Of a stretch of DNA of 36,530 nucleotides, positions 32,407-36,530 are shown one piece after another. The translations under genes and the position numbers were made by a program. The stretch comes from Verrucomicrobiota bacterium (GTDB taxonomy: Bacteria > Verrucomicrobiota > Lentisphaeria > Victivallales > UBA1829). Position 1 is the stretch's first letter. The number at the start of each line of letters is the position of its first letter. The stretch covers positions 1 to 36,530 of the forward strand of contig JAKJHH010000003.1 in assembly GCA_022703965.1 (NCBI GenBank), in the 5' to 3' direction. Under the pieces are notes generated by a model. That model made no database searches, was not told the DNA's origin, and saw only the letters and a list, made by a program, of their open reading frames with translations.

Positions 32407-32580
32407 ATGAAGAGAAATAAAAATAAACAAAATAGGAGTCCAAACGCTGAAAGCAACTTGGTAAACAAATCCTCTGGTCGGGTAAACCTTCCAAAAAAAT
32501 ACCGCCGGAGCAGTTCATACTCCCAATATGCGACTGTTTCAGACCTTGAGGAGAATGCCCTGAAAAAGTTTATTTTATGA
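32407..32580 (+). CDS. Small basic protein of 57 residues at the end of the flagellar operon (unrecognised)
   Basis: An open frame of 57 codons runs from ATG 32407 to TGA 32580. A GAGGA sequence lies just before the ATG. It starts 45 bp after fliE and its stop codon touches the strong terminator, so it fills the otherwise unexplained end of the operon. The product is strongly basic at the N-terminus (MKRNKNKQNRSP), with a Tyr/Ser-rich middle (KKYRRSSSYSQYATV) and an amphipathic end (SDLEENALKKFIL). It resembles no flagellar protein or CsrA that I know. It could be a real accessory protein or a chance frame; length alone is not significant, but position and ribosome-binding site favour a gene. 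Confidence 0.5.
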   Translation: MKRNKNKQNRSPNAESNLVNKSSGRVNLPKKYRRSSSYSQYATVSDLEENALKKFIL

Positions 32581-32625
32581 CGCGCGACTTGTCACTCCCT
32601 AGACAAGTCGCGCGTTCCCTTTTTT
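32580..32625 (+). terminator. Strong Rho-independent terminator of the flagellar operon
   Basis: A perfect 14-bp stem (ACGCGCGACTTGTC at 32580-32593 with GACAAGTCGCGCGT at 32602-32615) and an 8-base loop are followed by CCC and six T. It is the longest perfect stem seen in the window. Confidence 0.93.
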
Positions 32626-32666
32626 ACAGTTCTGCATTTTGAATGTTCCTCTGGAGATTTTCTTGT

Positions 32667-32688
32667 ATAATATCGAATGAGATATTAT
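32667..32688 (+). promoter_or_regulatory. Palindromic operator overlapping the -10 box of the ROK gene
   Basis: Arms ATAATATC (32667-32674) and GATATTAT (32681-32688) are perfect inverted repeats around a 6-base spacer. A TATAAT string at 32666-32671 is embedded in the left arm. The core ATATC-N6-GATAT recurs in the operator before the next operon (33954-33977), so the ROK protein probably represses both. Confidence 0.6.
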
Positions 32689-32717
32689 TTTGTTGTCTTG
32701 CAGGAGGAGGCTGGAAT

Positions 32718-33854
32718 ATGGCAGGGAGCAGAGCCAGAATAATTGACTCGATACGTCAGGGGAAAAATGAGTTTTCCAAAAAAGATATATGCGCTCATTC
32801 CGGCGTGTCCTGGGGAGCCATGTACAAAGTTGTGGAGTCCTTGCTTGAGGAAGGCTATGTTTTTTGCCGCAGCGTGGAATCCGGCAGGCGCGGACGCCCC
32901 AATGTCCCAATATGTCTGAATGCAGACGCAGCTTTCTGGTGCGGAATAGATCTCGGAGCATCCCAAAGCAAACTTGTGTTTCTTGATCTTGATTTCAAAG
33001 TGCTTTATTCAGAAAAAGTTCCAACTCCGCTTTATACAAATGAAGAAGAGCTTTTCAATTTTCTGTCCGCTTTTTATGCAAACTCCCGCAATGCTGCCGG
33101 AATTTCCGACAGCAAAATAAAGGCGATTGGCCTTGCCGTTTCAGGTCTTGTTGATTCAGAGAACAATCTCTTGGTCTCAGGGGGAAACTGGGGACTTCCA
33201 AGGGGTTCTGCGCTGAAAATAAGCAAACTTGCTGATTTGACCGGGCATTCTGTGTGTTCCTGCACGACGGCTGTGGCGGCGGTACTGGCTGAATATCATT
33301 TGGGACGTCAGGCCGGAGTCGGGAATCTTGTGAGCATCGGAATTGGCGTTGGGGTAGGTTCCGGAGTGGTTGCAAACCATTCTCTGCTGATCAGTCATCC
33401 GGACAGGCCGGTAGGATATATAGGGCACATACTTATTCCGGGCAATGAGCGTAGTTGTGTTTGCGGTTGGCAGGGATGTCTGGAGGCATATTCCGGAGGA
33501 AAGAGTTTGGAAAAGATAGTTCTGGAAAAGCTGCCAGACCGCTCTGATATTCGTAGTGCAGCAGATCTGGATCGTGCGGCTTCTTCCGACTCTGCTGCAA
33601 GAAAAATTCTGGATACCGCCGCATATTACAACGCTATCGGTGTGGCAAATATGATTCAGCTTTATTCTCCGTCGGCAGTTATATTTTCCGGCGGGCAGAT
33701 ACATCGGGACGGCTATCTCTACACGCAGACAATTGCAGAGCTTGGCAAGCTCCTGCCTGAGCAGAGGCGGAACTGCATTTTCGAGATTTCCAGACTTGGC
33801 GAATTTCAATCTGCTCTTGGTGCTGCACGTATGGCTTTTGAAAAATTTATTTGA
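32718..33854 (+). CDS. ROK-family transcriptional regulator (catalytically degenerate kinase fold)
   Basis: The ATG at 32718 follows GGAGGAGG and gives 378 residues: an N-terminal winged helix (about 5-65, FSKKDICAHSGVSWGAMYKVVESLLEEGYV) and a ROK domain with FWCGIDLGASQSKLVFLDL, AVSGLVDSENNLL, IGVGVGSGVV and the zinc-binding CVCGWQGCLE (C247, C249, C254). The ROK kinase catalytic Asp of ENDAN is Thr here (SCTTAVAAVLAE, T184), and Glu of GExGH is Tyr (GYIGH, Y234). So it is a regulator, not a sugar kinase, and its sugar ligand may be unusual. It precedes a glycosidase-like gene and a membrane protein on the same strand and probably controls them. Confidence 0.88.
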   Translation: MAGSRARIIDSIRQGKNEFSKKDICAHSGVSWGAMYKVVESLLEEGYVFCRSVESGRRGRPNVPICLNADAAFWCGIDLGASQSKLVFLDLDFKVLYSEKVPTPLYTNEEELFNFLSAFYANSRNAAGISDSKIKAIGLAVSGLVDSENNLLVSGGNWGLPRGSALKISKLADLTGHSVCSCTTAVAAVLAEYHLGRQAGVGNLVSIGIGVGVGSGVVANHSLLISHPDRPVGYIGHILIPGNERSCVCGWQGCLEAYSGGKSLEKIVLEKLPDRSDIRSAADLDRAASSDSAARKILDTAAYYNAIGVANMIQLYSPSAVIFSGGQIHRDGYLYTQTIAELGKLLPEQRRNCIFEISRLGEFQSALGAARMAFEKFI

Positions 33855-33927
33855 ACCGTTTTTGTCGTTTGATCGCCTTGTTTTCACTTCATAAAATCAC
33901 TTTTTTCAAATTTATTTGAAGAGACAA

Positions 33928-33956
33928 TTGCTTTATCGTGATTTGTTTTGTATAAT
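33928..33956 (+). promoter_or_regulatory. Promoter of the glycosidase/transporter operon
   Basis: TTGCTT (33928-33933), 17 bp and a perfect TATAAT (33951-33956). The -10 box overlaps the adjoining palindrome. The leader to the ATG at 34076 is about 110 bases. Confidence 0.55.
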
Positions 33957-33977
33957 TATATCTACATAGATATAATT
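33954..33977 (+). promoter_or_regulatory. 24-bp palindromic operator of the glycosidase/transporter operon
   Basis: Arms AATTATATCTA (33954-33964) and TAGATATAATT (33967-33977) are perfect inverted repeats around CA. The left arm overlaps the TATAAT box. The core ATATC-N6-GATAT is the same as before the ROK gene. The other sequence in this gap is a 13-bp direct repeat AAATTTATTTGAA (33843-33855 and 33908-33920). Confidence 0.7.
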
Positions 33978-34075
33978 ACTGATCTCATAGCTTCCAGATC
34001 TATGAAGAGGTGAAATAACGGAACCGAATTGAAGTTTGATTTCTCTACATAAATATTAAGAAGAAGGTGTGCAAT

Positions 34076-35794
34076 ATGTCGAAAATTCGGATTGTTTTTA
34101 AAAGCGGACTTGTCGAATTCCGCAAGATGGAAATCTGTTGCGGAAAACTGTCCTTGCCCAGGAAAGATATCCCTCTCGGCGTCGATTATATCGACTTTGT
34201 AAATGATGAGTTTTCAGCTGGGAGCGGTTCTGAAGGATTTTATCTTGTTCCAAGCATAGAAAACAACGGACACGCGGCATTATGTTTTTTTAGAGAAAGA
34301 TCTGATACCGAATCTATTTTCGAATCTAACGACATGCCTGTTTTTGCTGTCAGAAAAAATGGAACAGCTACCCTTGCCGTAGTCAGCGGTATGAGTCTGG
34401 ATTATTCTCTTTGCGTTGGTGTAAGAGATGGAAATTACTACGTTTATCCGCGCTTTCTGCTGAATGGAGAGCCTGCTCCGGAGGATATTGAGATATCATT
34501 TTTAAGCTTGCATGGAGATGATGCCTCTTACTCTGGAATCGCACGCAGATATCGCCGCTATCAGCTTGAGCGCGGAGCCTGTATTCCTTTACGTAAAAGA
34601 ATGGAAGAATATCCGGTACTTAAGAAGGCTCTGAAAGGTCCGATGGTGCGGATACGTCAGGCATGGAAACCGGTTCCGTCTCCGGTTCCGGATCAGACGG
34701 AGGAAACAGAACCGCCGATTCATGTCGCGGTGACGTTTGAACGAGTCGGAGAAATTATAGAGGAGTTCCATCGTCAGGGAATTGAAAATGCTGAGTTCTG
34801 TCTGGTCGGATGGAATAAATCAGGACACGACGGACGTTTTCCGGACATCTTTCCTGTTGAGCCTCTGCTCGGCGGAGAAGAGGGACTCTTGCAGGTAATA
34901 GCAAAAGCAAAAAAATACGGTTACTTGATTTGCGCTCATACGAATGTTCTGGACTCATATAAAATCGCAAAGCGCTGGCGTGAAGAGTATATGCTGAGAG
35001 ATCGGAACGGCAGTCTGCATCAGCAGGGAAACTGGGGCGGTGGAAATTCATACTTTGTATGTCCTGAAATGGCATACGAAAAATATGCGGTGCAGGATAT
35101 GGAAGATATGGCTCGTCTCGGTTTTTACGGGACTCATTACCTTGATGTAATGACTATACTGCGTCCTGACGCATGCTATCATCCTGAGCATCCGCTCAGC
35201 AGGAAAGAGGCTGGTGAGTGGAGGGGAAAGACTCTTGAGCTTGCCCGCAAAAAAGTCGGAGCGAGTGCTTCTGAAGGCTCATGGGATTTCTGTATAGGCA
35301 GCATTGATTACGTGCTTTATACGATTTTTCATGATAATATTTCCCTTCCGCCGATATGCGATAAAGTCATTCCTTTCTGGCATCTGGTCTATCACGGGAT
35401 TGTGCTTTATAACAGCTGCTGCGATACGGTGAATTCCGCAATAAAAAAAGACAAAAAGCTTTTCCTGAGAAACAGTGAATTCGGGGGACGTCCTTTGGCA
35501 TATTTCTATGCGAAATTCCTGTCTTCAGGCACTAACTGGATGGGGGATGATGATTTGATTTGTGCTACTGATGAGCAGTTACGCCAAGCTGTGAAAGCGA
35601 TAAAAAAGGAGTGTGACGAGTACTCCAGACTGAGCGATCTGCAGATGGAATTCATGGAGGAGCATGAAGAACTTGCCCCCGGCGTTTACAGGACAGTCTA
35701 TTCAAGCGGAGACACTGTCATAGTCAATTATACGGGCACTGTCTTTGAATATCGCTCCCGTGAAGTTCAGCCTCAATCGTATTTACGCTTTTAA
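34076..35794 (+). CDS. Uncharacterised glycoside-hydrolase-like protein (possibly GH101/GH129/DUF5696-related)
   Basis: The ATG at 34076 has AGAAGG 8 bases upstream and gives 572 residues; a GTG at 34067 is less likely. There is no signal peptide, so it should be cytoplasmic. The N-terminal about 190 residues are beta-rich; from about 215 comes a predicted TIM barrel (IHVAVTFERVGEIIEEFHRQGIENAEFCLVGW, LICAHTNVLDSYKI). Strand ends carry acidic candidates: HYLDVMTILRPD (D357) and SEGSWDF (E400). The mixture (HPEHPLSRKEAGEW, VIPFWHLVYHGIVLYN, LRNSEFGGRPLAYF) resembles proteins labelled DUF5696 or distant GH101/GH129 alpha-N-acetylgalactosaminidases, as I recall them. No family is certain. It is followed by an overlapping transporter-like gene and controlled by a probable ROK operator. 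Confidence 0.65.
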   Translation: MSKIRIVFKSGLVEFRKMEICCGKLSLPRKDIPLGVDYIDFVNDEFSAGSGSEGFYLVPSIENNGHAALCFFRERSDTESIFESNDMPVFAVRKNGTATLAVVSGMSLDYSLCVGVRDGNYYVYPRFLLNGEPAPEDIEISFLSLHGDDASYSGIARRYRRYQLERGACIPLRKRMEEYPVLKKALKGPMVRIRQAWKPVPSPVPDQTEETEPPIHVAVTFERVGEIIEEFHRQGIENAEFCLVGWNKSGHDGRFPDIFPVEPLLGGEEGLLQVIAKAKKYGYLICAHTNVLDSYKIAKRWREEYMLRDRNGSLHQQGNWGGGNSYFVCPEMAYEKYAVQDMEDMARLGFYGTHYLDVMTILRPDACYHPEHPLSRKEAGEWRGKTLELARKKVGASASEGSWDFCIGSIDYVLYTIFHDNISLPPICDKVIPFWHLVYHGIVLYNSCCDTVNSAIKKDKKLFLRNSEFGGRPLAYFYAKFLSSGTNWMGDDDLICATDEQLRQAVKAIKKECDEYSRLSDLQMEFMEEHEELAPGVYRTVYSSGDTVIVNYTGTVFEYRSREVQPQSYLRF

Positions 35795-36530
35795 TGAATA
35801 TCGAGTTTTTGAGTGTTTTGTTGCTTGCCATGTTGTGGGTGGGAATCGGAGTAACAGTTGCCAAGGCAAGGCAGGACGATTGTTCAATCAGAAAATTCTA
35901 TTTTACAGGTTCTCTGTGCGCCTCCTTTCTGCTCGGAATGTTTTTATTGATCAGTGGGGAAGCTATTGATTTTGACAGGACAAAGCTGTCGGCTTTGCTT
36001 GCGTTTTCAACAGCTTCGCTTCTGAACGGGATAGGACAGGCGCTGACAATGCTGAACCTGAAAGGCGGAGCAAGTGCGCTGGCTTATGCAATTCCGCTCC
36101 TCGGCTTTGCGGTTCCTTTCATCTGGAGCGGAATATTCTGGGGTGAACATATAACTGAGATGAATATAGCAGGAATTATCGTGACTGCTTTTGCTGTTAT
36201 ACTTGCAATTCCTCAAACGCAGAAAGCTTCTCAATGCGCTGAGCCGACGGGGATGGAGATAATGCGTCTTTTTACGGCTCTGGCAGCCATGTTTATTCTT
36301 GGATTCAGTCAGATTTTCATGATCTATCCGACGCTGCCACGGAATGCTCATATGCAGATTCCTTCCAGTATCGCTGCGTTTGTCGTACTGTTTACCAGCA
36401 CTGTCGTTTTTGGTATAGCCATATTGCTTCGTGAAAGCAGTCACCGTGCTCCGTTCCGAAGAGTTTTTACTTACGGACTATGCTGGGGTGTCTTGGCGGT
36501 TTTTTCATATCTTGTTCTTTTTATGGCATT
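35794..36530 (+). CDS. Multi-pass membrane protein, DMT/RhaT-like sugar transporter candidate (3' end outside window)
   Basis: The frame opens at ATG 35794, overlapping the TAA of the previous gene (TAATG), and stays open to the window end with at least 245 codons. The protein is very hydrophobic, with about seven or eight membrane segments (for example EFLSVLLLAMLWVGIGVTVA, FTGSLCASFLLGMFLLI, LAYAIPLLGFAVPFIWSGIFWG, NIAGIIVTAFAVILAI, RLFTALAAMFILGFSQIF), and repeats a pattern like drug/metabolite-transporter superfamily proteins such as RhaT (alternating helix pairs, GIGQALTMLNLKGGASALAYAIP). With a cytoplasmic glycosidase and a ROK regulator as neighbours, import of an oligosaccharide or sugar is likely. 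Translational coupling to the glycosidase supports joint action. The family call is tentative. Confidence 0.7.
   Translation, partial: MNIEFLSVLLLAMLWVGIGVTVAKARQDDCSIRKFYFTGSLCASFLLGMFLLISGEAIDFDRTKLSALLAFSTASLLNGIGQALTMLNLKGGASALAYAIPLLGFAVPFIWSGIFWGEHITEMNIAGIIVTAFAVILAIPQTQKASQCAEPTGMEIMRLFTALAAMFILGFSQIFMIYPTLPRNAHMQIPSSIAAFVVLFTSTVVFGIAILLRESSHRAPFRRVFTYGLCWGVLAVFSYLVLFMA

Follow-up and report, generated by a model that had tools for sequence, protein, structure and literature searches.

Matched palindromes flanking a ROK regulator gene in a Victivallales bacterium as predicted operators of its own promoter and of a GH129-like glycosidase operon

The window analysed here is a 36,530-nucleotide stretch of DNA from a Victivallales (Lentisphaerota) bacterium, and the features of the locus are collected in Table 1. 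A strong terminator lies between flgB-flgC-fliE-like flagellar genes and the ROK-family regulator gene, and isolates the ROK transcription unit from these upstream genes. Behind the regulator gene, the start codon of an EamA gene overlaps the stop codon of a DUF5696 gene by 1 nt; the EamA gene extends past the end of the window to position 36717 of the contig, and it is the full 307-aa protein that exceeds the EamA cut-off. The PF00480, DUF5696 and EamA matches bear out the initial annotation, which had read these genes as a ROK regulator and a glycosidase-like gene coupled to a membrane protein, and "glycosidase-like" can now be refined to GH129-related.

Table 1. Predicted and annotated features of the ROK locus (window coordinates)
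Feature	Coordinates	Strand	Basis
Rho-independent terminator	32579..32616	+	15-bp GC-rich stem and T run; -27.8 kcal/mol, z -7.5
Operator O1 (predicted)	32667-32688	.	ATAATATC-GAATGA-GATATTAT; perfect 8-bp arms, N6
Shine-Dalgarno of ROK gene	32702..32710	+	AGGAGGAGG; sequence, strong
ROK-family regulator gene	32718..33854	+	378 aa; PF00480, E=7e-41
Sigma-70 promoter of glycosidase operon (predicted)	33928..33956	+	TTGCTT-17-TATAAT; sequence and relatives' alignment
Operator O2 (predicted)	33953-33978	.	TAATTATATC-TACATA-GATATAATTA; perfect palindrome
DUF5696 protein gene, GH129-related putative alpha-glycosidase	34076..35794	+	572 aa; PF18952, E=7e-46
EamA/DMT-type membrane transporter gene	35794..36530	+	EamA, 38.4 bits vs cut-off 28.2

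Two inverted repeats, here called O1 and O2, had been singled out in this region for a common ATATC-N6-GATAT core and for left arms overlapping TATAAT. Both are present and perfect, at coordinates that were correct to within 1 nt, and the overlapped TATAAT boxes are seen at 32666-32671 for O1 and 33951-33956 for O2. O1 starts 51 bp 5' of the ROK start codon, and O2 lies 98 bp 3' of the ROK stop codon, upstream of the DUF5696 gene in the 221-nt gap between the two genes; pairing in O2 runs on inward, giving 12-bp arms with a 2-nt gap (TAATTATATCTA-CA-TAGATATAATTA). Two copies of the core occur in the window against 0.03 expected from dinucleotide shuffles, none of 100 of which reached two. When all 36,503 window positions were ranked by a matrix made from relatives' sites alone, with the window left out, O2 came first (26.0 bits) and O1 second (23.4 bits), the third position scoring 9.0 bits; 4.4 Mb of random sequence held two positions of at least 18 bits with the matrix.

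Orthologs of the ROK protein, 41-64% identical to it, occur in Lentisphaerota and Verrucomicrobiota, and also in a bin that carries the label Clostridia; one of the orthologous loci, L127, is from the named strain Oligosphaera ethanolica DSM 24202. They form a single clade of 17 members with 100/100 support, within which the window protein groups with those of L116 and L117, again at 100/100. A palindrome stands upstream of the ROK gene or the ROK-containing operon at 15 of the 17 loci (the window and 14 others), and a second one, +15 to +300 nt past the ROK stop codon and before the next operon, at 12 (the window and 11 others). The clade consensus is WnAWTTATATCAnnnnTGATATAAWTnW, with TTATATCA-N4-TGATATAA as the consensus around the ATATC-N6-GATAT core. 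Each clade site ranks between 1 and 3 within its own locus under a leave-one-locus-out matrix, and L134, a locus outside the matrix set, scores 26.6 and 28.2 bits at its two sites. The flanks of L130, whose ROK protein is 41% identical, were read and contain no site; those of L124, L126, L127 and L129 have no downstream site, and the downstream sites of L128 and L131 are weak (12.9 and 15.5 bits).

The spacing is specific to this clade. In 24 kb of clade flanks the N6 form is matched 26 times, as against once each for N4 and N5 and never for N7, and almost all of the 15 matches to N8 are the N6 sites read in a shifted register. In contrast, 88 kb around 24 other ROK loci of the same order give 5 matches for N6 and 3-9 at other spacings, which is background. 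These spacing controls and paralog loci were preferred to a reversed-pattern control (CTA..TAG) because the latter is probably biased by stop-codon avoidance. Identity is 64-82% within the sites and 28-52% in the flanking sequence, and this conservation inside poorly conserved flanks indicates that the palindromes are under selection. The initial annotation had named a lack of conservation in related genomes as the finding that would count against its reading; the opposite holds, as the pair tracks this ROK clade and is absent at other ROK genes. Since the paired sites are conserved with this clade and missing from other ROK loci, one ROK protein probably binds both.

Both sites overlap promoter elements. 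O2 promoter boxes can be aligned in the window, L116 and L118-L123, with a -35 of TTGACA/T or TTGCxT, a -10 of TATATT/TATAAT and a spacing of 16-17 nt, and O2 covers the -10 box and expected start region of the glycosidase operon promoter. That promoter was not among the calls of a generic promoter scan. The TATAAT that the left arm of O1 overlaps in the window is not preceded by a clear -35. Many O1 sites carry a TTGnAT at their left edge, which suggests an alternative register: this element could serve as the -35, and the operator would then occupy the spacer. O1 overlaps the promoter in either register, and thus fits repression.

The regulator itself has the parts expected of a DNA-binding ROK protein. 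Its ROK domain spans residues 75-373 (E=7.1e-41), it aligns to Mlc of Vibrio cholerae and Escherichia coli and to Lmo0178, and residues 14-65 align with the helix-turn-helix of Mlc, placing a winged helix-turn-helix at the N terminus, where a low-confidence model (pLDDT 61) has three helices and a wing. The Arg/Gly-rich GRP linker (residues 59-61) is invariant in 17/17 clade members, and the zinc motif CxCGxxGCxE (C247, C249, C254, E256) is invariant throughout the clade as well as in 24 ROK proteins from outside it. The WGxxxK of the recognition helix (W32, G33, K37) is also invariant in the clade and is not common to other ROK regulators. The ligand site is altered: residue 234, the Glu of ExGH in 24/24 other ROK proteins, is Tyr in 17/17 clade members, and residue 184, the position of the ROK catalytic Asp, is T, S or A in all 17. 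The catalytic Asp and sugar-binding Glu looked for in a ROK sugar kinase are therefore both missing, which argues that the clade protein is not a kinase, and these pocket residues hint that its ligand may be an unusual inducer and not a plain hexose. The palindromic operators at own and target promoter that go with a ROK regulator are seen here by phylogenetic footprint only.

The reading that best accounts for the locus, and which we hold with considerable confidence from sequence comparison, is that O1 and O2 are operators of the ROK repressor encoded between them, and that this repressor, until released by a ligand, would repress its own gene and the GH129-like/EamA operon. A ROK dimer would bind each 22-28 bp inverted repeat and, lying over the -10 region, would block RNA polymerase. 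At O1 this would close the regulator's own promoter, giving negative autoregulation, and at O2 the promoter of the glycosidase/EamA operon. A sugar-derived ligand would release the protein from both operators, and the glycosidase and transporter would presumably share one sugar as their substrate. We infer that the protein binds the sites, that it represses and does not activate, and that an inducer of this kind exists. The initial annotation had likewise proposed one ROK repressor at both promoters, and this remains the best-supported reading, given that the pair tracks the ROK clade and that the relatives-only matrix places the two sites first and second in the window.

The same protein could act on the same sites as an activator or dual regulator instead of a simple repressor: the sequence is compatible with either sign of regulation, and in relatives of the MBL type O1 is flanked by divergently transcribed genes, so that a single bound protein could affect both. 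We nevertheless regard this as unlikely, because O2 lies over the -10 box and the start region and not at an upstream position, and because most of the sugar-linked ROK regulators covered by the cited work act as repressors (PMC4856308, PMC9104551). It is more improbable still that the palindromes belong to another regulator that co-occurs with the ROK gene. The link between ROK and the sites does rest on sequence comparison, and AraC- and GntR-type regulators are encoded elsewhere in the window, but no gene other than ROK is present at every locus with sites, ROK always adjoins them, targets and neighbours vary, and other ROK loci of the same order lack the motif. It is hardly credible that the palindromes act as RNA hairpins, either as terminator or as attenuator, or that they are AT-rich repeats that formed by chance at TATAAT boxes. 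AT-rich palindromes originate easily, and both sequences can be folded as RNA (-8.3 and -6.1 kcal/mol, z about -2). What is conserved, however, is the motif as DNA: its spacing stays constant, its centre varies and the genes behind it differ. Chance is excluded by ranks 1 and 2 under a matrix made without the window, and as terminators or attenuators the palindromes were rejected for having no T run and almost no GC in the stem, and for not being called as such.

The enzyme behind O2, as judged from its sequence and a model, is a putative GH129-related alpha-glycosidase. It matches the GH129 alpha-N-acetylgalactosaminidase NagBb (5wzn) with E=4e-32 over 415 residues. Foldseek with a medium-confidence model (pLDDT 66) likewise gives GH129 as the top matches (E=7.5e-19). 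In the alignment with NagBb, Asp357 falls on the catalytic Asp435 and Glu400 on Glu478, which we take to be the catalytic residue paired with Asp435; Asp357 and Glu400 are both invariant in five homologs. Sequence, fold and catalytic carboxylate pair thus all agree with GH129, although identity to the known enzymes in the fold alignment is only 18-20% and the family entry is DUF5696. No signal peptide is evident in the protein, and the name DUF5696 (PF18952) did not occur in the literature searched. The GH129-like DagB of Zobellia is an alpha-1,3-(3,6-anhydro)-D-galactosidase that frees 3,6-anhydro-D-galactose in carrageenan breakdown, and it keeps the Asp alone of the GH129 catalytic pair (PMC5698469). 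Because DagB differs both in activity and in this pair, the substrate of the DUF5696 protein is not readable from GH129 similarity. Homologs 48-64% identical to it lie within the ROK operons of L121, L123, L126 and L128, which makes ROK and DUF5696 a conserved association.

In relatives, the operators are predicted to control a sugar-acid pathway, comprising an MBL hydrolase, an SDR, an IlvD/Edd dehydratase, a flavoprotein, AllG/FdrA proteins and sometimes the DUF5696 glycosidase. The usual order is MBL-fold hydrolase, ROK, O2, SDR, (DUF5696), IlvD/Edd dehydratase and FAD protein, and the genes facing O1 are either AllG with an aldose epimerase-like gene or FdrA/AllG/acetokinase/AllH. At a distance of 6 kb from ROK in L123, the AllG-epimerase pair has a 32.7-bit site of its own, which argues that the pair is part of the regulon. 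Three loci (L122:383-5363, L125:5164-9019, L131:5163-9003) encode FdrA/AllF-, AllG- and AllH-like oxamate transcarbamylase subunits divergently from the MBL-ROK operon with a common O1, and L122 has an acetokinase-family kinase where a carbamate kinase is expected. This arrangement suggests an acyl-phosphate-forming step in the sugar-acid pathway. The Clostridia-labelled bin (L129) has a ROK-SDR-IlvD-FAD-FdrA-AllG cluster like those of Lentisphaerota, with a single operator upstream of the whole cluster and, additionally, a PfkB kinase and a KDPG/KHG aldolase; horizontal transfer or misbinning would explain its presence there. Behind O2 of L116 and L117, which have the closest ROK proteins, stand yet other genes. 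Across the clade, the operators have been kept while the enzymes behind them have been exchanged.

Against this background the operon in the window appears to be a reduced form of the one in relatives. The best match to their IlvD/Edd dehydratase in the source genome, a 78%-complete assembly of 4.22 Mb, is only 40% identical, so an orthologue appears to be absent from this assembly. A scan of the assembly by consensus pattern gave 16 matches to ATATC-N6-GATAT and 8 to WWWWWATC-N6-GATWWWWW. Apart from O1 and O2, the strict matches either overlap a start codon or are located inside coding sequence or at its edge. One weak intergenic core match of 18.2 bits (G000:C123:704, L006:701) lies about 60 bp before a rodA/ftsW-like gene; it is at chance level, a score of 18.2 bits being expected about once per 2 Mb. 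A wider regulon in the source genome was rejected on these counts, and in the available 78% the regulon looks local. The "self-contained regulon" of the initial annotation accordingly describes the reduced version in the window, and does not extend to relatives, where the regulon is the larger predicted sugar-acid pathway. As a side observation, the end of contig G000:C325 and the start of G000:C333 (L088:3917, L089:62) share a short sequence close to the beginning of a gene for a secreted protein, PstS-like by eye, and the two contigs may be joined at those ends.

Sites away from the ROK locus also occur in relatives. In G027, matches of 27.1 and 26.3 bits (C56; L095:104 and 218) stand upstream of genes for a prepilin-like protein and a GH50 beta-agarase-like enzyme (E=7e-80), on a contig other than that of ROK, and a 23.9-bit match (L128:2347) precedes the gene for a secreted 1023-aa protein; judging from these sites, the ROK regulon of G027 seems to extend to secreted enzymes. 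G009 has intergenic matches of 24.9 bits before an ADP-ribosylglycohydrolase-family gene (C54; L094:3524) and of 21.1 bits before the gene for a 362-aa protein that follows, by eye, an IclR-like gene (C44; L093:3528), and these are possible distal members.

A broader proposal, which we put forward tentatively and consider rather less probable than not, is that the clade is a distinct repressor subfamily sensing a sugar acid, lactone or 2-keto-3-deoxy acid from its own pathway and not free hexose. Jointly with this, the route would consist of an MBL lactonase, an SDR, IlvD/Edd, a flavoprotein, and an AllFGH-like acyltransferase with an acetokinase-family kinase, with GH129-like enzymes feeding it and, in one member, GH50 agarase-like ones as well; the operators would have stayed fixed as enzymes were exchanged.

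We found no paper on a ROK regulon in Lentisphaerota in a limited literature search, and the present analysis yields an operator motif, tested by comparison, for a ROK clade of this phylum. Sites and regulator together give a handle to delimit a carbohydrate pathway and the substrate of DUF5696/GH129-like glycosidases, and the clade-wide change of ligand residues makes the question of the inducer directly testable. Repression from local operators is the standard mechanism for ROK regulators (PMC9104551, PMC4856308, PMC3750489), and known ROK repressors bind inverted repeats whose minor grooves are read by Arg/Gly-rich linkers (PMC9104551, PMC4856308). NagC/Mlc, XylR-type and Thermotoga ROK regulators govern local, autoregulated sugar regulons, and the locus resembles theirs in having the regulator gene beside its target operon. 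The solved relatives of the protein are Mlc, Lmo0178 and XylR, and it shares with the NagC/Mlc and XylR-type repressors the winged helix-turn-helix and ROK domain, the GRP linker, the zinc motif and a palindromic promoter operator. Its clade differs from known ROK repressors in the WGxxxK recognition helix, the Tyr replacing Glu in the ligand site and the clade-wide loss of the catalytic Asp, and the ATATC-N6-GATAT core is unlike the operators of XylR (GTTT-N7-AAAC; PMC9104551) and RokB (TTTGTTC-N11-GAACAAA; PMC4856308). The mechanism itself is ordinary, as largely is the regulon; what is new here is the operator sequence and family, the altered ligand site and the predicted pathway.
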